Positions 4,382 through 18,114 of a stretch of DNA of 64,000 nt are shown one piece after another. Made by a program: the position numbers and the translations under genes. This DNA comes from Oryzias latipes (taxonomy: Eukaryota; Chordata; Actinopteri; Beloniformes; Adrianichthyidae): contig NC_019881.2 of assembly GCF_002234675.1 (NCBI RefSeq), forward strand, positions 13,501,825-13,565,824, read 5' to 3'. The notes below the pieces were generated by a model. The model ran no database searches, was not told the DNA's origin, and worked only from the letters and a program-made list of their open reading frames with translations. The first letter of the stretch is position 1; every line of letters starts with the position of its first letter.

Positions 4382-4388
4382 CAAATTC
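4382..4388. repeat. Target-site duplication, left copy (CAAATTC)
   Basis: The seven bases directly before the left terminal inverted repeat are CAAATTC. The same seven bases directly follow the right terminal inverted repeat at 18108-18114. This is the footprint expected of a cut-and-paste insertion. Confidence 0.85.
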
Positions 4389-5287
4389 CAACCCAGTCTC
4401 ATCCTAAAATGTGTAGTAGCTACATTTGTCCACATGGAAATGCGTGAGAGTTTTACAAAAACGCCCCCTAAACTGTGAGGGGGATACGTTTCATTTTTCT
4501 ATTCATTTTCTACGAGCCTTCTCAGGATCACGTGACTTTGGAGGTTTGGCCTGCCGTGAGCAAAAAACATGGCGGATGCACGTTCATTTTTTCGGTGGAA
4601 TATCCCATAAAACAAGATATTTTGAGGACTAATTTTTATTTTGACAACATTTCTAGTGAGAAATATACCATTTTCTTTTAAAATATGCTTTCATTTAGGA
4701 CATACAGTTTGTAGTTTGCTTGTTTCGTTCAACTTTTTCTCCCAAAAGCTCTCTGTTACGTTGGAGAAACACGTTAACTTTCATTCATATCTGCAGACGT
4801 GCGCGTGGGTCACGTGACTAATATGTTTCTCTTTTTTTCCGCAGAAAATTGTAAAATATGAGTGAATATGGACTGATTTTTTTTTGAAAACATTTCTAGC
4901 AGTATATATCCCCTTTATTTTCGTAATATTGCAGACATAAAGTTGTTAGTTTGTTACGTTCAACTTTTCCTCAAAGGATCTGAAAGCGTCTGATCTTTTC
5001 CATTCATATATGCGGGCTGACGTGGGTCACGTGACGTGCCTTTCTCTTTTTTTTCCTGTGGAAAATCTCGTAAAAAGGTACGTTGCGATTTATTAATTTC
5101 ATTTATTTACATATCTAGGGACCCGTGTATAGGTTTTCTCTTTCCGTGTTGCTGTTGCGGCGATCAGGCTTTGATTGACATGTGACAACAAACCGGAAAA
5201 ATGTTGAGTTCAGGGACGGACCAAAGAGTTCTTTAAATTGATTTTTCTGCATTTTAATTTATTTACACTACGAGTCTAATGGTGTGT
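4389..5287 (+). repeat. Left terminal inverted repeat with CACGTG subrepeats
   Basis: Pairs with 17195-18107. It is built of three diverged subrepeats, each with a TCACGTGAC palindrome (4528-4536, 4809-4818, 5026-5035) followed by a T-rich run, a TTCC..GGAAAAT-like block and ACATTTCTAG. The part beyond about 4849 is clearly diverged from the other end, with about one change in ten and indels. A 68-codon open frame here recurs in the other end only because the DNA is duplicated. Confidence 0.85.
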
Positions 5288-5579
5288 GATTAAAAAAAAC
5301 TATAAATATTATGATAAATGAGATGAAACAATTATTTTGATGGAGTTTATAAAATATTAGGATCTATTATATTCTTTTTTCTTTAACTGTCAATTTTTTT
5401 GACGTATCTCATATATTATAGTATTACAATGAAGTGCTCTAATTTATCTGTTAAAAAAGGTTTCATCACTGTTTCCTGTAGTAATTCTCAATAAAATTTT
5501 AAATAGGATATATTAAATAGGATATATTATCTAAAGTAAACAGGCTTTTAAGCCTTCAATTTGCCCCAATTGACATGAA
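5288..5579. other. Element interior before the first cargo gene
   Basis: AT-rich spacer between the left inverted repeat and the GC-rich start of the first cargo gene. Nothing was recognised beyond a short direct duplication, TAAATAGGATATAT, at 5502-5530. Confidence 0.4.
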
Positions 5580-5654
5580 GTGCGCATTTCGAAAAGCCAG
5601 TGAACGCAGCGTCATACGGGCACCCCCACCCCAATCCACCGGAAACCCCCCCGG
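5580..5654 (+). promoter_or_regulatory. GC-rich, CpG-containing start region of cargo gene 1
   Basis: The sequence changes abruptly from AT-rich to GC-rich just upstream of the ATG at 5655, with CpG-bearing blocks such as GAACGCAGCGTCATACGGG. This is typical of a vertebrate housekeeping-type promoter and first exon. No TATA box was identified. A second possible leader exon lies at about 5881-5916; it contains a CACGTGG E-box and a GAG|GTAAGT donor. Confidence 0.45.
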
Positions 5655-8600
5655 ATGAACCCGCAGGAAGGCGCGCGGCTGAAGAACTCTTGGACAGCTG
5701 GAAGGTGGGCGATGATTTGAACTTTTCTCTGTAGAAATGTAATGTTTAGATTTGGGAAACCAGAGATGGTTTTTAGTAAAAACGTGTTGGCTGTTTAGGA
5801 TTAACGTTGAATGACGAGGCGTTTTTCCATCTTAAATTGAAAAGGCCGCAGGATCACGGTGAAGGCCTCTTCTGTATAGAGGACGGGGGCGGAAACGTCA
5901 CGTGGTCTCCGCAGAGGTAAGTTTCCTTTTGGGTCATTTAGCCAGAAACGGGGGTCTGCAGCCCTTTAAACAGCTAAGAGCCTTTGTAATGTCTCACTGT
6001 CCAGAACTCAGTAGGACACACAAGGTGTCTCTTCAGCTTTTAGAAAATCAAACACTCATTTGCATTTATGTTATTTTGGAAACTTGATAACTACTGGGGT
6101 TTACAAAGGCTTTTTCTTTTTTACACATTGTAGATTTTATGTTGTTAGTACATCTCAGCCAGTATTTCTTTAAGGGCCTATATCATGCAATATCAACGTT
6201 TTAAAATTTTAAGTGTATTGTAATGTTAATTCCTCACAAAAACAAATCCACAGTAGTATTTTGATCCATTCACGAATCTCTCAGCATTCCTCTGAAACCC
6301 TCTGAGCACCAGCCCCTCCCAAATCACAATAAGAGGGTCCTCACATTGTGACGTCATCATAAGTGAGGAGCAGCCTCTTCTAGGAAGAGCCTGTGCAGCT
6401 AAACCGCCTCCAGGCTAACAGACACGCCCACTTTCTCAATGGAGCTAGCGGTGATCAGCAAAATGCTTTCATTGCACAATATTCACATCCATCTTTGCAA
6501 AAGTTTGGATGGAAGAAACGCAGAAACGCTGCCGACGCCGACTCTAGGTTGATGTCATGAAATAGGCGACACCCACAAGAAACGAAAGGCGGAGCCTCAG
6601 AGATCAAGGAAATAGTTTATTCTAAATGGCTAGCATGGTATAGGCCCTCTAAATTGTGCGTATTGACCTCAAATTTATTTTTTGTGGTACGTTGTCAGGT
6701 TTAAAAAAATTTGTCATAAATGCTGGAATTTCTTAAAATATTGTGCATCACCGCTTGATAGATTATTGAAGCATTATGGGTACTGTAGTCAGGAGCCTGG
6801 CATAGTAATACTTTGCTTCAACTGTTGAGTAGATCACCAAGTTGAGTAAAGTTTGACTTATCTGACTGTTTTGTTTTGCGTGATGCGCTGTGTCGTCTGA
6901 AAAATAGGATATTTGTTTGAATTAAAAACATTTTTATTTTTTGTCAGAGAACCGCAAAGGAGGGGTCAAGGAGCCACTTGTGGCTGTGGAGCCTCAGGCT
7001 GTAGACCCCTGGTCTAAACAATTATGGCTGATTTGGCTGACCACATTTATTTATCCTAGCGTTGTCAACAAAGTTAAAGAGCCGCTCCAATGGAAGTCAT
7101 GTTTTTAAGATCAAACATTTTTCTCATTATTGAGAACATTAACAAAAATATAAACAGATACACAATGATATAAGATTAAAACTGTTTCTGAGTATTTATT
7201 CAAATCTCGATGGATCAGGAGAAGATGAAACTCATTGTCTCAAAAAGCTCTTATTTGTGACGCTCTAACTGCCATGAATGGGCCAAAGTCTCTGCTCCAC
7301 TCCAATTCTGATGCATCCACTTGCAGACAAAAACCAGTAGATCCATTAATGTCCTGAGTTCCCTTGTCTGAGCTGGTATCTGGCTCAAAAGTGTACACAT
7401 GGATAGCTCCAATGTTGCTCATTGATTTTTTTTTTTGCTATGCTAATGTCGGCTAGGGCTTGTGAGGTGCTATAAGCTAGCGGGAGAGAGAATCAACAAA
7501 CGGTTTATGGGAAATTAGCAGAGGCAAACATCTGCACCACAGCTCTGAGGTGAAATTCTTATGAGCTGCTGTGCTGCAGAAAAATGTCTTTAAAAACAAA
7601 ATGATCGTAATTAAAAAAAACACTGGGAACGATTTTATAATAGTTAAAAATTCTGTTAGAATGTCTGATTCCTGATTCTTTTGTGTGTGTATGTATATAC
7701 ATAAAAGAACCTCATGTTTTTTTCCCTTTCCTCTCTCAGACTGGTCAGTTATTTGGAGACAACATGTACAAATAGTTCCTGGACTGATCTTCTGCTAACT
7801 TTGAGGTGGAGAGGCTGTCAGGTTCATCTGTTTCAGGGTCCTGCATGCTCTCCCTCCATGTTTGCCGTAGCAGTGGATGGAACTTGCAAAATGTACTGTT
7901 TTGAGAGCCAACTGGGGTGTGTAAATTTTTTTTCCACCTACATTTTTGATGGTATAAATGTTTTTCTTATGTAAACTTTTCTGTTCTTTTAGGCTCAGTG
8001 GTTATTTTGAAGATGCGTTTCTGACCAAAAACACTGTGGAGACCTCCTTTGTGAACTGCATTCATGGGGAAATAGAAAATGTAAAGCTATTTTCATGTCT
8101 TCTTCCTCAAGAAAAGGAACACGCCTGCATATATGTTTTATTGTATTTTGTGTCATATCATCATGTTAATATACGACATTCATTTGTTTTGATAGAATCC
8201 TGGAGATGGGAGATGTGGAGCAGGAAAGTTTGTGGCAGCACCAGAGTCCTCCAAAAAGTCTTCTGGCAAAGTAAATGAGGAAGGATCGCAGTCTACCGTC
8301 GTGGAGTTTTGCTGAAAGGACTGAACATGTTCCATCCATCCATCCATCTTCTTCCATTCATTCAGAACCAGGTTGTGAGGGCAGCAGTCTTAGCAAAGAT
8401 GCCCACACTTCCCTCTCCTCCAGCTCCTCTTGGGGGACCCCGGGGCCAGCTGAGAGACGTAGTCTCCCCAGCGTGTCCTGGGTCTCCCTTAGGGCCTCTG
8501 CCCAGTGAGACATGCATGGAAACCCCCCCCCCGGGAGGCGTCCTCCTCTGGATGTAGAGAGGAAGTGGCTCCACTCAGAGCTCTCTCCAGGTGAGCGAGC

Positions 8601-9710
8601 TTCCTGAACCTGTTCCGTTGAGATATTTTCATGAACCCCTTCTATTTGCAGAAACGGCTTTCTCCACAGACCGTGCAGTTCTTCTGCTCTGATGTAGTCT
8701 ACGAGTTCTGATCGCATTTGGAGAAGGTTGTGGTTCTGTGTCCTGAGATGCAGGACCTGTTGAACATGTGTCCTTTTCAAGTTCACTCTTGGATGTGTGA
8801 GGTAATAATTATCAACGGCTTATTTCTCATTATTCCTGTTGGAGTTTTTTTTCTAATCCCTTATGTTTCAAAAGTTTGCAAACATACATTTTGGTTGAAA
8901 TGATGAGGATCCGAGGATGAAATCAAGAAGGGACAACATCAGGGAAAGGGACTGAACCGACTGAACAGCTTCCTCTCTTCAGCAGACACATGTGTACATA
9001 TGTGTCAAATATTGGTAAATACTCATTGAAGATGCATCCTTTTTGTGTAGTTTGTTTTCTCAGTTTAATACATTTTGATCCTTTCATTCTGCACAGACAT
9101 CCTCGCCGTTCAGGCCGGTGGCTGGAACAAGCAGAAGTCAGAAAAGCTGGAGCAGACGTTACCAGAATGATACCTCCAGGTAAAGACTGTGGTAATGTTG
9201 TAGATAAATGTTGGCTTGTTTCTTTCATGTTACTCTCATGCTGTTGATGTGGAATATCTCATGATTTTTTCAGTATTATTAATACATTAATCTCTTCCCA
9301 CAAGGACCAATCAAAATGACCCAGAGAAAAACACTGAAGGGCTTTGTCTGAGCATCAGGAAAACAAGAATCAGCATATGGTAAAAATCATTTGTTACACT
9401 TTCTAAAGTTGTTGCATAACTGATCAAGCATGATGTGATGGATTGCAGGTTATGGTGCCATGGTAAAGAACTAAAGGCTCTATGATGTCATGCTGCTGAC
9501 CAGACTGTGGTTGGTGAAGTCCAGCAGCACTGCGGGTCCTTGAAGTGTGGTTGAAGAGCTCTCCTCCAGCTTTTGGAAGGTTCTGCCCCGCAAAGCCAGG
9601 AGGTTTCTCTTTGTGATCTGCATGGATGTCCAGGGCTTGTGGCATTTATGTGTTTTCCTCTTCATTTCATTCTCAGGCAGCACAGAGGCATTGATGGAGA
9701 GAGGACGTGA
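5655..9710 (+). CDS. Cargo gene 1: seven-exon gene for an unrecognised 193-residue protein
   Basis: Coding exons: 5655-5704, 7740-7916, 7993-8080, 8196-8270, 9097-9179, 9305-9379, 9677-9710. All introns are GT-AG (donors gtgggc, gtgtgt, gtaaag, gtaaat, gtaaag, gtaaaa), and the phases join without a stop to give 582 bases. The protein starts MNPQEGARLKNSW and ends WQHRGIDGERT. Residues about 17-75 include a hydrophobic stretch (TDLLLTLRW) and several Cys (CQVHLF, GTCKMYCFE). The second half is Ser/Arg/Lys-rich, basic and probably disordered. There is no signal peptide and no clear membrane span. I do not recognise the family. AATAAA at 9815-9820 fits as its poly(A) signal. The first intron carries two short inverted-repeat elements and the fourth a LINE tail, yet the exons remain open. 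The gene lies wholly inside the 13.7-kb element, so it is either a captured host gene or an element-encoded protein. Exon 4 read without splicing would instead stop at 8311-8313. Confidence 0.65.
6172..6651. mobile_element. Short inverted-repeat element, type B, full-length copy
   Basis: Ends are AAGGGCCTATATCATGC and GCATGGTATAGGCCCT, an imperfect inverted repeat. The inside matches 33475-33918 over long blocks such as CTCTGAGCACCAGCCCCTCCCA, CATCCATCTTTGCAAA, GCCGACTCTAGGTTGA and GCCTCAGAGATCAAG. It carries no open frame and sits in intron 1 of cargo gene 1. Confidence 0.7.
7084..7645 (-). mobile_element. NIGAI-type element with short reading frame
   Basis: Reversed copy in intron 1 of cargo gene 1. 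On the minus strand it keeps the 60-codon frame 7422-7240, starting MSNIGAIHVYTFEPDTSSD and continuing with LQVDASE. That frame corresponds to those at 36545 and 43775. The ends are decayed relative to the 36.3-kb copy. Confidence 0.7.
8350..8605 (-). mobile_element. LINE tail fragment (C-terminal coding end)
   Basis: The minus strand encodes GVPQEELEEREVWASLLRLLP. This resembles the recurrent C-terminal motif (..EELEEV.GEREVWASLLRLLPPRP..) found in many fish LINE-derived predictions. It ends near a CATCCATCCATC run at 8335-8350, as expected for the 3' end. It lies in intron 4 of cargo gene 1 and is not host coding sequence. Confidence 0.6.
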
Positions 9711-9814
9711 AGGACTAATTGTCTGCTGAGGAGGAGACTTTCTGCAGTTCAAGCCCCAGCTCCACCCCTAAAAAAAGGCTTATATGAAGGAAAACCTCAT
9801 TTCATTTTTGTACC

Positions 9815-9820
9815 AATAAA
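9815..9820 (+). terminator. Poly(A) signal of cargo gene 1
   Basis: AATAAA lies 105 bases after the stop codon of cargo gene 1. Confidence 0.55.
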
Positions 9821-10279
9821 TGACTTTTAATTGAAATGAGAGATTTTTTTCTGCACCGCACCAATGAAGGGTTTTTCAACCTAAATTTCAACAATTACAT
9901 TGTTTTTTACCTCCGTTCAAGTTTCTACAACACTAGCTAAACATTTCAGTGCTCACACCTGTGCTGAAGACACTTCTCATTTTAACTCAAACGTTTGGCC
10001 TTTGATTTGTATGTCCAACACCTTAGAATGAAACACTGACCTATTAAACTCATATAATAAATGTGCTATGCATCTCCAAATCCTTTGTCAGGGTACAGAC
10101 TACATTTTAATTGTAGCAAGACTGAAGTAAAATGTAGCAAAATGACAATGAGTTATCTTAAATTAGGGGTAAATGACATGAGAAATTAAGAATATTAGAA
10201 GTGTGGAGTGATACGTGTATTTATCAGTATGTTAGCTGCAGGAAGGGTGCTGTCCTTGACACGTTCCTTTACTCAGACA
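9821..10279. other. Spacer between cargo gene 1 and nested LINE
   Basis: AT-rich element interior. No gene or recognisable repeat. Confidence 0.4.
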
Positions 10280-10600
10280 GGATGACAGGTAGGGAAGGGG
10301 GTAGCCGATGATCTGCTCCAGTATCTTCAGCACAGAAGCTTCTACTGCTCTTCTTCAGTTTGATCTGAGAGCCAGACCATGATACAGTTGGACTGGCTGA
10401 GCGGTAGGTTGCCAGCAGCTTCAGACGTGCTGATGTGCCTTGTTGATAACGTCCTGGATGTTAGGAAACCAAGTTAGATCAGCTGAGATGGGGATGCCCA
10501 GGAAAGGGAAGCTGTGAACCCTCCTCTATGCCTACTAAAGTCCAAGATGACTTTCATGGTCTTTTATTTGCCGATCAGCCTTACACTATACAGTTTCCGC
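10280..10600 (-). mobile_element. Decayed LINE reverse-transcriptase fragment
   Basis: On the minus strand, short in-frame pieces read KTMKVILDFSRH and, further on, FLGIPISADLTWFPN..DVINKAHQH, broken by stops. These resemble the conserved stretch of fish LINE reverse transcriptases (..VDFRR.., ..YLGV.I...L.W..N...V..KA..RL..). It has no intact frame and is nested in the large element. Confidence 0.5.
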
Positions 10601-10849
10601 ACTTGTCTACAAAGTTCACCTCAGTGACCTTTAATAAGTCTTTGTTATTGGCAAGTTAATTACTTATATCCAAGACATGGAGATGTGGGTCCAGTATGAG
10701 CAGGATTTGGGAAATGGCAGTTGCCAAGAACTCACATGAAGTTTCAAGGTTTTTGCCTTTATTTGGAGGAAAAAAAGTTTTTGTCCTTTGTTTGTTGTGC
10801 AGAATTGCAAACCTAGAAAGAAATCAAGTTGAAAGAATTTATATAAATG

Positions 10850-11300
10850 TATTTGCCCTTCTTTTGACCCTTCTACATCATGAATATTTGGTGGCTGTTG
10901 CTTGGCGACTGTGAGATCTCTCCATAGGATTGACATGGGCTGGGCCTCTCCATGACCTTGATATGATTGTTCTTCAGCCATTCCTTGGTTGCCTTGGCTG
11001 TAGGTTCTAGGTCACTAACCTGTTGGAAGACCCATTCATGACTGATTTGAAGGGTCCTGGCTTAAGGAGGGTAGGAAGTTCTCACTCAGGATTTTCCATT
11101 AATGGCTCCATCAACGTGGTGACGTAGCTCTGTGCAGAAAAATAGCCACAAAGCATAATGCTTCCACCTCCATGTTTGACAGTGGGGAAGCTGTTCTTGG
11201 GGTCATAGGTAGCAATTCTCTTCCTCCAAACCCAATGGTTGAGTTGATGCCAAAGAGCTCAGTTCTGAGCCAAACATTCCATTATGCAGAATAAACTGAT
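10850..11300 (-). mobile_element. Tc1-family transposase remnant
   Basis: The plus strand contains the well-known reversed Tc1 transposase text: CATGACCTTGATATGATTGTTCTTCAGCCATTCC, GGAAGACCCATTC, GGTTCTCACTCA-type blocks, CACAAAGCATAATGCTTCCACCTCCATGTTTGAC and GTTGAGTTGATGCCAAAGAGCTC. Read on the minus strand, these give the Tc1 region around FGINST, HGGGSIMLW-like and ..EWSSQSPDLNP-type motifs, heavily decayed. It is older than, or inserted in, the large element. Confidence 0.65.
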
Positions 11301-11579
11301 AAAGCAAACCCTATTTTTCAGTGTGTGATTTTCATTTTTTCATAAATCTTAGGACAATTTAGATGATAAAAGTAACAAATAAATGAAAACAGTATAATAC
11401 AGCAAATATGTAAATATTTGATGTGATGAACAATGCTTATCTGATTTAGACCCAACATGAAATATTTTTTGACACACACACATCAAGTTGTGTTATTTAA
11501 TGCTCGTAATTTAGACACAAATGATAGAAATGTTAGGTTTATATGCCAAAGATATGCCATGTGAAAATTTTAGTGCAAA

Positions 11580-11720
11580 TACGCATGCGTGCGCGCCGTG
11601 CACATAAAGCCACCCCACCCCCACGTATCCGCGCGCCGGTCGGTGGGTGCTGGGCGTCAATAAAGGTAATCTGGTTGTCGCGCGTTCTGCATCTCTGCAC
11701 GAGCTAAAGAAGTCTCAAAG
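11580..11720 (+). promoter_or_regulatory. GC-rich start region and leader exon of cargo unit 2
   Basis: A CpG-rich island in AT-rich surroundings (GCATGCGTGCGCGCCGTGC, CCGCGCGCCGGTCGG) ends with a strong donor, CTCAAAG|GTAAGAA, at 11720/11721. By analogy with the start of cargo gene 1, I read this as a second promoter and non-coding first exon inside the element. A possible start codon lies downstream at 11991 (MAALAPPPVSRQKK), before a GTAATT donor. Confidence 0.45.
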
Positions 11721-12390
11721 GTAAGAAATGTGAACACACGAGGCATTAATGAAAATACTTTATGATCATCTAAAAGTATTTTCATCTGACAGATGAATGC
11801 CGCTGTTGTTATCACTGTAGAGCGGGGCTGAAAAATACGGCCTCCATCGAGAGACTGAACGTAACACGACTGCAGGTTACTATGATCATCATAGAAAAAT
11901 GTATTAATTATTTGTTTCGACTGTATAGTTATTGTGGTGGAGCAGAGGAAGGGAGGTTTGTGAGAATCGGGGTTACATTAGCTAATGATTATGGCAGCGC
12001 TCGCGCCACCGCCGGTTTCCCGGCAAAAAAAAGGAACAGTAATTTACTGATATATTAAAGTGTTATGATTGACCTATTTAGGGTTTTTCTCCAAATTTAC
12101 ACAAAAAACGTTGTAACAACGATCATCTGGACTTGGTTTTGTAAATATTTTAAAACAGTCTCTGTCTCAGAGACCAGGGGCCTGTTTCAGAAAGGAGGTT
12201 CAACCAACTCTGAGGTTAAACTTGAACTCTGAGTTGGTCAATCGGGAGATTAACAACTCTGAGTTTTCTGTTTCAGAGAAGCTGATCCGAGTTGGGTCAA
12301 TCAACTCTGAGTGGACTGATTCGGAGGTGAGCGTGCGCACCGCGACTATAAGAAGCCATTATCAATGGAGCGCAGATATCACGAGTCACC

Positions 12391-13386
12391 ATGGCAACCG
12401 TGAAAAAAAGAGGTCTGCGTATTTTTCTCCAGCTGAACTTGACGTGCTGCTGCAGAGTTACAGTGAATATGAGCACATATTCCAGAAGAAAAGCAACACC
12501 GCTGCATCTGCAAAACAGAGACAGTTAGCGTGGGAAAACATAGCTGCTCAAGTTAATGCGTAAGTTTGCATTTAAATCATTGTTATAAAATATTGACTGT
12601 AATAACTTTTTAAATAGCGTAAGGTGTGAAATAAAAAAATGGCGATATTTCGGTGTACTTTTGAAGTGTTATTCCTGGTGTAATTGCATGAAATGCTGCA
12701 TAGTGTACAGAACCAATCTGGGTGGGGGGGGGAATGCCTTTAACGTCGGTAATGTTTAGAGGACTTTTTTGTTAACCTTCCCCTCTTGCAAACGTTGGTC
12801 AGTTTAATATTAATACATGCAATTGTGTTTTTAAAAGTGAACTTTTGTCTACTGTTGAACCTTTCGCTGCGCGAAGACTTCTCCTTTCTTTTCTCTCGTC
12901 TTTCCGACCGTGGTCAGAGGCGCAGGGGAGATTTCCTTCAGGGCCGAAGGGAATTCTCCTTCGGGGTTCACTTCCCATTGGAAACCCTCAACCTCCAGAG
13001 CGGATAAAGAATGACTCCAAAACAGTTATTCTGGGAATGACACCTTCTCTTTATTTAACTAAGTGCTCCGTCCTCCGAACACACAATACATACCACGCAC
13101 ACACCTCCGCTCCGTGCTCACCCCCCCCCCCCCCCCATCTGCACCTGCACTCGCACCCCGCTCAGCACACACACTCTGCAACACTACCCTTGTATTGATC
13201 AAGTGGTATAGGTTTATATGGGATTAAGAAAGTAAGCAGTGCTAGCAAATTGTGTTTCCAAAAAGTAATTGTTACATTAATCTAATTCAATGTCCCTGAT
13301 GTCATTTTCATGTAGATGCAATCCTGCAGGAATTAAAAGAACATGGCAGCAGCTAAAAATGAAGTATAAAAACATAATTCAATCAG
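12391..13386 (+). pseudogene. Harbinger Myb/SANT-like DNA-binding protein, broken
   Basis: Two exons (to 12559, then 13316-13386) join in phase across a GTAAGT..TAG intron. They give a Myb/SANT-like domain with KRSAYFSPAELDVLLQSYSE, KQRQLAWENIAAQVNA and CNPAGIKRTWQQLKMKYKNI. This is the Myb_DNA-bind_5 type that helps Harbinger transposases bind their ends. The likely start ATGGCAACCGTG (12391) is one base out of frame with the domain at a run of seven A, so the copy is frameshifted. No clear continuation was found after 13386. Confidence 0.65.
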
Positions 13387-13402
13387 GTCAAATGTGAGCA
13401 TG

Positions 13403-13657
13403 TCATGGATGTAGGCTTTGTTGACAATATTTGACATATGAAACATCTACATAGTAATACATATCTAATGTTGTTTTCATTGTATATGTAATTGACTGCA
13501 ACGAAAAACGGTAACGCTCAAACAAAAACGTATGGAGCAATGACAAAATATCGAGTCTTCTCAAAATCCTCGTACGAGGTAAATATAATTCTCTATGAAT
13601 TAATGCAGCCTCCTCGTCTATTGGGTCCTCCAAAAAAGGACAAGCCATTCTTGTCAC
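13403..13657 (-). pseudogene. HARBI1-like nuclease, N-terminal fragment
   Basis: The minus strand encodes MACPFLEDPIDEEAALIHRE followed by RRLDILSLLHTFLFERYRFS and SIT. This matches the N-terminal pattern of Harbinger nucleases (..RDRLDPL..D..L.ERYRFS..SI.YL..). The catalytic DDE part is absent, so the copy cannot mobilise itself. Confidence 0.7.
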
Positions 13658-14780
13658 TTATACCGTCTCTGTGTGACGGACATTTGGGCAATGAAGGTTA
13701 AAGCGAAACATACCGCTTCATCTTTAAAAAGGGGAGGGGACCGGCAGAAACCTTGAGTTTGGAGAATAGAACCTGCTCCCGACCAGGTTAGGTTCACAGC
13801 ATAAGTAACCATGGATACTGACTCCGAGTATAAGTTACCTCTCTTTCAGAAACGGGTTTGACTTACTCTGCTTTCTCTGGTTTAACAAACCTCCCATTCT
13901 GAAACGGAAAACCCAGGGTTTCCCTGATTTCAGGGTTAATGCACTCAGAGTTTACACTTAACCTCCTTTCTGAAACAGGCCCCTGGACTGACTGACTCCT
14001 CCCCCTCACGTTCCAAACAGGAAGTACCCGCTGGCTCCAAGGAGCCAAAATCCTATAGACTTCTAAAGAGAAACAAACAGCTGTTAGTCAGTCATTCTAT
14101 GGGTCAGATTAACCATTCTTGTTGTGATACCCTTTTAAACATGTTTTTGCTAATTCCAGTTATTTGTTTTACAAAACTGTTTCTTTATCACAAGTTATTC
14201 AAATTATAGACTGACCAACAGATGCCTCAGTAATAGCATGTGCCACCTTGAATGTTTGTTTGACAAATTCCACCAAGCTCACTTTCAGTGGAAGCAGTGT
14301 GGACTTTCAACAAGCTTACTCCTGATTGGCGACAGTAGTTGCCATAGAAATGTTGACTCAGATCAATCACTGTCAACTGGCTCCAACGTGGTGACGTCTT
14401 TATCACAGAGAAACGACGACAGAATTGAATTTGTTATGATGGATCTGGAAGTAAATGGGTGACGTCACACTCGCTCAGACCTTTTCTCTGATCCAGTCAA
14501 ACTGCTTTTTTACCAGTTTTATTCCAGAAATCATTTTGGATAAGAGGAAAGACATCTTCAGCTCAAAACCAAGTCTTCATGACCTTTTTTTTTTATAACT
14601 TTTCTTTTTAAAATTCAGAACTAATAACCTGCACATTCTTACAAAACTGTTAGACTTCAATTGCTACCTTAATTTAATTGTAAAACTAACAACCATTGTC
14701 ATTGATATGGCAATATTTTCCCCAAATCTTATCAGAATGTGGAACTGGAGACATAAAAATTCTGCTTTTCCTATTTTCAG

Positions 14781-15475
14781 CTGAATCTGCCACGAGGCTC
14801 GACAACGTCTTCCATCAACTGCAAAGCGGTGATTGCTGTGGCCGCCAAAACATCCAAATGTCAGGCGGGCTACAAAGATTTCAGGCCAAAAGAGAACGCC
14901 TCACATGTGATGAAGTGTCTGTATTGGTATGTATTTACCATCTGTGACTCAGAGTCATTAACCAATTGTCGATCTGTTCACAGTGTTGTATGATAATTTA
15001 AATTTTGACGATGACGATACAAAAATTGCTGCCAAACCTGCCAAAAAGTCCCGCCTCTTACCACACACATGTTGTGCCCCCTAAGGTGCCCTAAGTTCCC
15101 TGATCAAGCAGAAACGTGCTTTGACTGGATGAAGGCCTTGTATCAGGTATACTGGTAATAATAATTTTACATTCACCTCAGTCTGTTGTTGTTCCTCATT
15201 ATTCATGGAAGCTTGATGACACCACATCTTCAATCTGCATGAACTCTAGTTTGATTAGAAACTTTCATTTGTGAACCGTCAGCAGATCTGGTCATGTCTC
15301 ACCAAAACAACCACACTAATCATTTTATCATTTTCATCCATTAAGGTTGGAAAAACCAGCAGCCTTCCAGTGCTTCAGCCGTCCAACCATCAACCGTTTC
15401 AGACATCCATCCTCCCACCACTTCAGCCCCACAGCCGTCCACCAGTGTGCCAACTTCGGACATTTTACTATCCTG
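14781..15475 (+). CDS. Cargo unit 2: candidate spliced exons, function unknown
   Basis: Three exons have good splice signals and compatible phases: 14781-14926 (TTTTCAG| .. |GTATGT), 15086-15146 (CCCCCTAAG| .. |GTATAC) and 15346-15475 (CCATTAAG| .. |GTACAA). Joined, they read LNLPRGSTTSSINCKAVIAV.., ..NASHVMKCLYW, then CPKFPDQAETCFDWMKALYQ, then a Pro/Ser/Gln-rich part. No start or stop exon is certain, and the last exon has a more natural-looking composition in another frame (NQQPSSASAVQPS). It may therefore be a decayed gene or a non-coding transcript. A possible poly(A) signal is at 16831-16836. I do not recognise the family. Confidence 0.3.
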
Positions 15476-17194
15476 GTACAATCTTATTTTTCTGCACAGT
15501 TAGCAAAAATGATATGTTTTTTAGATATTCCTGTGTTTTTTATCCTCAACAAATGTTTCTCCAAAGAAATATGAAAATACAGAATAATTCATCTGGTGGT
15601 TATTTTTACTCTTTTCCTCAAATCTTTAATAAGAAAAAAATAATTCAGTTCAAGTTTACTTGTGCTTCTCTTTTTAATGGGCATTACAGTTGATATAAAA
15701 CATATAACATGCAATTAAAATGTTTTGTAGTTAAAAACATTTTACACACTATTAAAAGATTCTATAAAATATTATTTAAATAAAAAAGGATTCCTTTCCA
15801 AGAAAATGTTGACTACCGTATATCTTACAATAGTAGCCCTGGCGTTTATTCCATCACAGACAGAACAGTGATGGTTAATGGGTTTATTTTGCAGCAAAAT
15901 TTCATCAAGAAATGCAGACAAACACCAGCAGATGAACATTTCAGGATTTATTCAAATGATGAGAATATTGGATTGTGTTCTGATCAGCACTGGCTGTTGA
16001 CGTTTCTTTTCTCCTTGAAGCATCAGCCTCCGTATCAAAAATCATCTTGGTTGTCATGAGGATCTCTTTCCTGGAGACACGCCCACCTTTCCGTCTTTGT
16101 GCAATAATTCATGTTCAAACCAGTTCTTCTAATTTGTCGCTTTTCTTTGCATTTCCACCAGTAAAAAGTAATACGACAAAATACTTGCAGAATTTGTAAA
16201 GATTTGGATTTTGTATTATTAATTTGCCTTTTTTAGTCTTTTATTATAAAATAACTATGCATTATTACTTTATTTTAACTAACACATTTATCTTAGTTTA
16301 CAGTAGTCCTCTTAAACATCTCTTAAACAAGTTTACACTTTTCATCTTTCAGAATGCAGCCGTGTGATTGGAGGAAAAGATTAATATGCAATGAGGACAT
16401 TTAAAGAAAAAAGGAGCAGTTTTTATTTTACATTATTACTATTTTAAAGTAGAACTCTAATGTATATAAATGCTTTTTTATTAATTTGTTTGGCATATTT
16501 ACTGTGTTAGAGTTCTGATGATTGTTTTGAGTGGTAAACGTTTTTATTTTATTTATGAAACCCAGATGGAGTTAATGGAGTGCTCGTCATGTTTTATGCT
16601 GTATATATTATTAATGAATTTATTTATTTATTTTGAAGTGCCTATTTGCAAGTAAAGAAGGCGGGGTTATGGTTAAAATACGTACGGACAATCCAGCAAC
16701 GTGCCTCTTCAACATGAATTTCCATCAGTTTTTTTGCTTGGTCGCAAATAAATAAGTCCAAATAATAATCAGCCTAATTTGTTTTTTTGTTTATTTAAAA
16801 TTATATTAATATTTTCTAATTTTCTTTGTCAATAAAAGGACAAAAGGGGTAGATGATGGATGCATGTCCAAGTTTTATTATTCATGTTCTACAAGTTGTT
16901 AGATATTGATTATTTGATGCTTTTGTGCTATGCGTTAAAAATCAATGTAATATTGTAATTATTCATAAATATAATGTATTTCTAAACTCAACTAGTTGAT
17001 GTTGAAAAAATACGCTTGCATGGACTTTACGACAGAGTACATCGGTCCCTAGAAATGTTATTAAACCTAAATATTAAACCTCAGACGATCTTATTTTACG
17101 AGATTTTTCCACAGGAAAAAAAAGAAACTCGCGTCACATGACCCCGCGTCAGCCCACAGATATGATGGAAAAGATCAGACATTGTACACAGCAT
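15476..17194. other. Element interior before the right inverted repeat
   Basis: AT-rich sequence, possibly later exons of cargo unit 2 (TTTTGCAG acceptor at 15894). AATAAA lies at 16831-16836. From about 17040 to 17190 there is one more copy of the terminal subrepeat, with GTCACATGAC at 17133-17142 in place of the palindrome. The left end lacks this extra unit. Confidence 0.45.
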
Positions 17195-18107
17195 TTAGAC
17201 TTGTAGTGTGAATACTTTAACATGTAAAAGAATATTGAATAAAAAAATCGCTAAGTAAATTTAGAGAACTCTCCAGTCCGTTCCTGAACAACATTCTTCC
17301 GGTTTGTTTAAATGTCCTTCAAAGTCGCAACAACACAGCATGAAACCTATACACGGGTCCGTAGAAATGTAAATAAAAATAATTAATAAATAGCAACGTA
17401 CCTTTTCACGAGATCTTCTATATGAAAAAAGAGAAACTCACGTCACGTCACGTGACCCACGTCAGGCTGCATATATTTATGGACAAGATCAAACGCATTC
17501 AGATCCTTTGAGGAAAAGTTGAACGAAACAAACAAACTACGAACTGCATGTCTGCAATGAATGGATATTATGAAAATAAAGGGGATATATACTGCTAGAA
17601 ATGTTTTCAAAAATAAATTAGTCCACAATCACTCCTATTTTATGGCATTTTCTGCGGAAAAAAAGAGAAACATATTAGTCACGTGACCCACGCGCACGTC
17701 TGCAGATATGAATGAAAGTTAACGTGTTTCTCCAACGTAACAGAGAGCTTTTGGGAGAAAAAGTTGAACGAAACAAGCAAACTACAAACTGTATGTCCTA
17801 AATGAAAGCATATTTTAAAAGAAAATGGTATATTTCTCACTAGAAATGTTGTCAAAATAAAAATTAGTCCTCAAAATATCTTGTTTTATGGGATATTCCA
17901 CCGAAAAAATGAACGTGCATCCGCCATGTTTTTTGCTCAAGGCAGGCCAAACCTCCAAAGTCACGTGATCCTGAGAAGGCTCGTAGAAAATGAATAGAAA
18001 AATGAAACGTATCCCCCTCACAGTTTAGGGGGCGTTTTTGTAAAACTCTCACGCATTTCCATGTGGACAAATGTAGCTACTACACATTTTAGGATGAGAC
18101 TGGGTTG
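17195..18107 (-). repeat. Right terminal inverted repeat with CACGTG subrepeats
   Basis: Reverse complement of 4389-5287. CACGTG palindromes lie at 17447-17456, 17678-17687 and 17960-17969 (GTCACGTGAT in the last). The outer 461 bp (17647-18107) match the left end with one mismatch; the inner part is diverged. Confidence 0.85.
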
Positions 18108-18114
18108 CAAATTC
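18108..18114. repeat. Target-site duplication, right copy (CAAATTC)
   Basis: Identical to 4382-4388 and immediately outside the right inverted repeat. Confidence 0.85.

Follow-up and report, generated by a model that had tools for sequence, protein, structure and literature searches.

A probable giant, non-autonomous KDZ-superfamily DNA transposon with long inverted ends in the medaka genome

A 13.7-kb segment of the genome of Oryzias latipes is very probably a Kyakuja-like member of the KDZ superfamily of DNA transposons, giant in size and cut-and-paste in mode, that has lost its autonomy. It lies in a stretch of 64,000 nucleotides of the RefSeq assembly GCF_002234675.1 (contig NC_019881.2, positions 13,501,825 to 13,565,824 of the forward strand), here called the window, to which all coordinates refer. 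The observations that carry this assignment are long terminal inverted repeats (TIRs), a perfect 7-bp target-site duplication (TSD), the decayed remains of a KDZ transposase gene and of another gene from a KDZ-linked fish protein family, and internal insertions. The element is called non-autonomous because the transposase gene contains stops, a frame change and an inserted piece and lacks its N-terminal half. The first-pass annotation of the window had left the choice between a large non-autonomous carrier and the first look at a new family; the TIRs, the TSD, the two decayed genes and the nested insertions support the former, whereas the latter found no support, the central gene being a decayed KDZ transposase. 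The element is no new superfamily and belongs to the known KDZ kind; its significance lies in the pairing, in a vertebrate-type genome, of near-identical ends with dead genes in a KDZ transposon of giant size.

Copies of CAAATTC abut the element at 4382 to 4388 and at 18108 to 18114, as had been annotated. The interval 4382 to 18114 therefore takes in the duplication, and the transposon proper spans 4389 to 18107 (13,719 bp), with CAACCC...GGGTTG termini at 4389 on the plus strand and 18107 on the minus strand. By simple arithmetic, the chance of a given 7-mer at one set place is about 1e-4. The left TIR occupies 4389 to 5287 (plus strand, 899 bp) and the right TIR 17186 to 18107 (minus strand, 922 bp), in agreement with the length of about 0.9 kb first assigned to the ends. 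Their description as exact reverse complements nearly held for the outer 461 bp (4389 to 4849 and 17647 to 18107), where alignment of both ends gave 460/461 identical positions, but failed for the inner part, with 364 of 420 aligned positions identical (∼87%) and 57 gap columns across arm positions 462 to 899. The drop in identity past the outer 461 bp was abrupt and its sharp edge lies close to a repeat-unit boundary, and the near-identity of this outer part looks like homogenization by gene conversion. An arm pair of 467 nucleotides at 99% is not a product of chance, and the pattern CAACCCAGTCTCA..AAATGTGTAGTA was confined within the window to both element ends and was found in 0 of 100 shuffles.

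Both ends also contain TCACGTGA palindromes, set in repeat units that have diverged. Those of the left end were located at 4528, 4810, and 5027 (4528 to 5034; spacing of 282 and 217 bp), and those of the right end at 17448, 17679, and 17961 (17448 to 17968; spacing of 231 and 282 bp). All 6 of the 6 occurrences of TCACGTGA in the window fell within the two ends, compared with a mean of 0.33 and a largest value of 3 in 100 Markov resamples. Four of the six have the form GTCACGTGAC, which we take to be a consensus site of basic helix-loop-helix (bHLH)-zip factors such as TFEB/USF. The terminal 14-mer CAACCCAGTCTCAT was absent from the literature searched. The Chaetodon microsatellite primer Lun05, GCAACCCAGTCTCACATCAA, from a (CAA)30 locus, includes the terminal 13-mer CAACCCAGTCTCA of the element in the available text of its source (PMC3298945). 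Other fish may thus carry the terminal motif as a repeat, although this is a weak lead and chance is possible. Four 13-mers of the terminal sequence occurred in five papers in all, the remaining ones being a salmon paper (PMC5446266) and three non-fish papers, where chance is likewise possible. Nine stretches from a 15-mer scan of viral contigs were taken as chance.

On protein-level comparison, the central gene could be firmly assigned as a decayed, intron-containing transposase gene of the KDZ superfamily (7738 to 9755, plus strand), recognizable from about residue 325 of an 850-amino-acid relative toward the C terminus. The first-pass annotation was right that the interior holds spliced gene-like units, one of which is the transposase that it missed. 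A KDZ-like exon series at 7741 to 9755 was recognized in translated frames and joined into a read-out. When this read-out was searched against 5.8 billion proteins, the only match at an E value of ≤10 among 1,735 candidates was P0001 from Melanotaenia boesemani, with 47% identity over 82% coverage and an E value of 3.1e-65. P0001 has the Pfam domain PF18758 (KDZ), which was seen again when the Pfam scan was re-run. With P0001 padded with X as the query, a device that lets longer proteins in, 299 proteins were obtained at E ≤ 0.01 among 3,867 candidates. PF18758 was present in 120/120 listed relatives, and 98 of these also had CxC3 (PF18804); with 22/120 lacking CxC3, the N-terminal cysteine cluster is common in KDZ proteins and not defining. 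All organism-named entries among the listed relatives were fish. Of 121 KDZ proteins, the closest by BLASTP were P0002, P0008, P0003, and P0012, at 48 to 51% identity.

The matches were specific to one part of the window. In a tblastn search with the 121 KDZ proteins (E ≤ 1e-3), they were confined to 7.7 to 9.8 kb, except for Pro-rich simple sequence near 57.1 kb. A profile built from 120 KDZ proteins matched 7 of 734 open reading frame (ORF) pieces inside the element at E ≤ 1, compared with 0 of 2,674 outside. The seven pieces span 7705 to 9167, all on the plus strand and collinear, and cover profile positions 355 to 599 with E values from 3e-10 to 0.051. With E values up to 20 admitted, 24 of 623 pieces matched, and the 17 beyond those seven all had E ≥ 2 and were scattered on both strands. 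The initial statement that the interior carries no known transposase was therefore mistaken, given these seven pieces and the match to P0001. The KDZ profile had no significant relative in the PDB (best E = 0.071), NCBIfam matches were all far below the cutoff, and an AlphaFold model of a KDZ relative made from 26 sequences was poor overall, with a mean predicted local distance difference test (pLDDT) score of 61.

The gene is extensively decayed. Stops were found at 7764 to 7820 (two, in the matching frame), 8604 to 8804 (two), and 9099 to 9179 (one), a frame change occurs near 8285 to 8300, and one exon is interrupted by a retroelement-like insertion at 8334 to 8603, whose flanks CTGAACATGTTCC and CTGAACCTGTTCC are identical at 12 of 13 positions. 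In our assumption, the insertion resembles the 3′ ends of fish Rex1-type long interspersed nuclear elements. As a result of the stops, frame change and insertion, no working transposase can come from this copy. No piece of the element matched KDZ profile positions 1 to 350, the N-terminal half with CxC3, at E ≤ 1, and decay or deletion is the likely cause of this loss. An AATAAA at 9815 to 9820 (plus strand), 3′ of the last transposase piece, may be a poly(A) signal.

The second decayed gene, at 11807 to 16387 on the plus strand, is a member of a small fish protein family. Its exon 1 remnant (11807 to 11884) was matched to P0127 alone (residues 4 to 31, 22/28 identical). An exon with a zinc-ribbon-like start, MPRGSTT..CKAVI, decayed here to LPRGSTT, was placed at 14778 to 14927, an exon remnant, DQAETCFDWMKALYQV, at 15102 to 15149 and a low-complexity Ser/Thr/Pro/Gln-rich repeat exon at 15345 to 15470, each by both protein and profile matches. 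A possible start remnant of a chromodomain-like exon (ECSRVIGGKD, then a stop) at 16352 to 16387 was suggested by order and position and by a weak match to P0125 only (E = 0.49). The tail of the cyprinid KDZ gene model P0017 matched two adjacent downstream pieces, correctly ordered (E = 0.007 and 0.020), and for the cyprinid KDZ models P0012 and P0020 the tail match was the low-complexity piece only (E = 0.020). Such joined database models show that the KDZ and accessory genes are adjacent, even if the join itself may be an annotation artifact.

When window pieces were combined with the P0017 and P0012 tails as a query, 12 proteins were found at E ≤ 1 among 241 candidates; since database tails and window pieces were mixed in this query, the E values of the 12 are not all evidence for the window. 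Several of the proteins share the sequence MPRGSTT..CxxCKAVIGVATKTCKxC, then a Ser/Thr/Pro/Gln-rich stretch, and then a C-terminal ECSH..YYPVKRV..EWEPCSMCGKTW. A profile built from eight of these proteins, with the near-identical P0127 as well as P0128, P0132, and P0133 left out, matched 3 of 734 pieces inside the element (E = 3e-5, 6e-5, and 0.003, the second of low complexity) versus 0 of 2,674 outside, and is partly dependent on the window, some members having been found with window pieces. Two of the 12 proteins are encoded on contigs equal in size to those of listed KDZ genes (P0122 and P0008 of Notolabrus, 42,375,795; P0125 and P0002 of Myripristis, 38,390,726), which suggests that each pair shares a chromosome and does not speak to adjacency.

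The C terminus of the accessory proteins appeared to resemble chromodomains, weakly but consistently. In a profile search of the PDB with this region, 8 of 10 rows were of chromobox or CDY type, with E values of 0.097 at best; an uncharacterized protein stood in the top row (E = 0.023) and one row was HIC2. Foldseek, run with the whole AlphaFold model, gave 330 matches at E ≤ 10, and 45 of 50 rows among the matches listed were chromo, chromo-shadow or chromobarrel domains, as classed by their titles or by the nature of the protein; the best E value among these was 0.29, and none was below 0.001. The model itself, made from 7 sequences, was poor (mean pLDDT, 48), with only residues 271 to 300 well predicted (81 to 87). 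Pfam scans of the accessory proteins called no chromodomain and nothing above the cutoff; zinc-ribbon matches were seen in 3 of the 7 proteins scanned (E = 0.09 to 0.45, below the cutoff). A KDZ accessory gene in fish was not described in the literature searched, from which most subscription journals and, as used, Repbase were absent, and the gene is possibly a new part of the finding. It points to a protein family that may be accessory to fish KDZ elements, with an above-cutoff Pfam match in none of the members scanned.

P0127 is the product of Oryzias latipes LOC144990996, an annotated gene that is apparently the element's accessory gene in its decayed form. It matched the accessory exons of the window in three pieces, with 69/71, 37/41, and 22/28 identical residues and a few residues of overlap at the piece ends, and it shares the internal gap of the window gene relative to the accessory family. 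P0127 could represent another copy, in which case the element moved once it had decayed, or the present locus in the genome of a relative, and it was not used as proof of mobility.

The first-pass annotation held that the size, long ends, gene cargo and 7-bp TSD match no standard fish element, whereas parallels exist among published KDZ elements as described in the available portions of three sources (PMC12730594, PMC12810828, and PMC12477816). A TIR-bounded element with a TSD within the KDZ range of about 4 to 8 bp (PMC12730594, PMC12810828) is what was found here, and the PF18758 transposase was recognized through relatives; membership in the superfamily, through the transposase, is firm. 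The two Kyakuja families of Laccaria have a 7-bp TSD, 5′-CA..TG-3′ ends and no TIRs and carry TET/JBP (PMC12730594). The medaka element likewise has a 7-bp TSD, CA..TG termini, a KDZ transposase and an extra gene; it differs in its 0.9-kb TIRs and in carrying a zinc-ribbon/chromodomain-like gene, with no TET/JBP among the 20 ORFs scanned. Zisupton, a fish element for which PMC12730594 and PMC12062965 cite Bohne et al. 2012, is reported to have TIRs, an 8-bp TSD, and CxC7. The medaka element is similar as a fish KDZ element with TIRs and a TSD but differs in its TSD of 7 bp and in the cysteine clusters of its listed relatives, which are CxC3, in 98/120, and in one case CxC2. None of the listed cluster accessions is CxC7, by the numbering that we assume. 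The active KDZ1 to KDZ3 of Cryptococcus, 9 to 11 kb in length, share the KDZ transposase, TIRs and large size and differ in having CxC1, shorter TIRs (139 to 241 bp), and TSDs of 8 bp (KDZ1) or 4 to 8 bp (KDZ2 and KDZ3) (PMC12810828). The giant DNA transposons of Ectocarpus include KDZ elements generally of >10 kb, with fixed nested insertions, extra genes, an often pseudogenized transposase and inferred movement in trans (PMC12477816); size, nested insertions, extra genes and a dead transposase are all paralleled here, in a host other than a brown alga. Dada, which in the text available targets RNA genes and has no TIRs and a 6-bp TSD, was rejected, as were Polinton and Teratorn, with no polymerase or integrase among the 20 ORFs scanned.

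Several observations weigh against the assignment to a Kyakuja-like KDZ transposon. The evidence comes from a single copy of these ends, at this locus; neither an empty site nor an intact relative bearing them was seen. Scanned directly with Pfam, neither 20 of the 64 ORFs listed nor three joined read-outs gave a KDZ match, and the KDZ assignment consequently runs via relatives. The 0.9-kb TIRs depart from the Laccaria Kyakuja families, in which the absence of TIRs is reported and not, in the accessible text, stated to be defining. For this reason the element is called Kyakuja-like and is not filed as Kyakuja; the label is carried by TSD length and end dinucleotides. Finally, shorter inverted pairs (the best being 18 nucleotides at 94%, 5374/16396) bracket the KDZ gene. 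From position, we infer that the ends belong with the KDZ gene and that the gene is not a passenger.

These bracketing pairs also favor the main alternative, in which the carrier comes from a different superfamily, being P/Galileo-like (long TIRs and a 7-bp TSD) or hAT7-like, and acquired the KDZ gene through capture or a nested insertion. Within the portions of the literature accessible, Galileo of the P superfamily surfaced for a 7-bp target site, TIRs, and fish, and hAT7 has 7-bp TSDs. However, no P or hAT domain was found in the 20 of 64 ORFs scanned with Pfam, there are no strong separate KDZ ends inside the element, and the two-gene layout agrees with that of the KDZ-linked genes of other fish, so such a carrier is unlikely. 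A previously unrecognized DNA-transposon superfamily was considered because 0.9-kb ends with TCACGTGA units and a 7-bp TSD fit no fish element in the literature searched, as far as those sources were available, and the terminal 14-mer is missing there; a KDZ transposase inside makes this highly improbable. Equally hard to sustain is a host segment flanked by two separate short-element insertions with ends unrelated to the interior: the outer 461 bp are indeed much more alike than the inner repeat part, but the inversely oriented ends are common over 0.9 kb, the TSD is perfect over the whole 13.7 kb where independent insertions would each have their own, and the interior holds transposon genes.

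For the preferred KDZ transposon, a mechanism of movement in trans can be proposed. A KDZ transposase encoded by an intact relative at another genomic locus would bind the repeat units of both ends, excise the full 13.7 kb and reinsert it at target cuts staggered by 7 bp. With its zinc-ribbon-like and chromodomain-like parts, the accessory protein may once have aided the transposase in chromatin or in choosing chromatin. Gene conversion or gap repair would have homogenized the outer 461 bp during a late mobilization or afterward, with decay of the interior being older. A broader proposal, which we hold tentatively and rate at slightly less than an even chance, is that the transposons of one fish KDZ subgroup comprise two genes, for a transposase and for a conserved partner whose zinc-ribbon-like head and chromodomain-like tail are joined by a variable Ser/Thr/Pro/Gln-rich tether and which would steer insertion toward, or past, marked chromatin. 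The ends of such elements would be TCACGTGA unit arrays, maybe borrowing host bHLH factors, and copies with both genes dead would still move with the two proteins supplied by others. Should the accessory protein prove to read chromatin, fish would offer a system for studying KDZ site choice.

No RNA families (at the gathering threshold) or tRNAs were detected in the 64-kb window. An ORF, MSNIGAIHVYTFEP..., at 7240 to 7437 on the minus strand may resemble P2X7-C-terminal-like proteins found in fish transposons; it had no Pfam match, and the PDB gave two chance matches only. A possible Tc1/mariner relic lies at 10664 to 11300 (minus strand); two of its ORFs were scanned with Pfam and one was searched against the PDB, in neither case with a match. 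In the Pfam scan of the 20 ORFs, matches below the cutoff were to COG7, FAM135, an acetyltransferase, DUF7244, and two more Myb/MADF models. Only one family, Myb/SANT, was above the cutoff (Myb_DNA-bind_5, E = 5.8e-10), and this exon is part of a nested element at 12171 to 13989, without a clear target duplication at its edges but with 30-nucleotide inverted ends, which we assume to be PIF/Harbinger-like.

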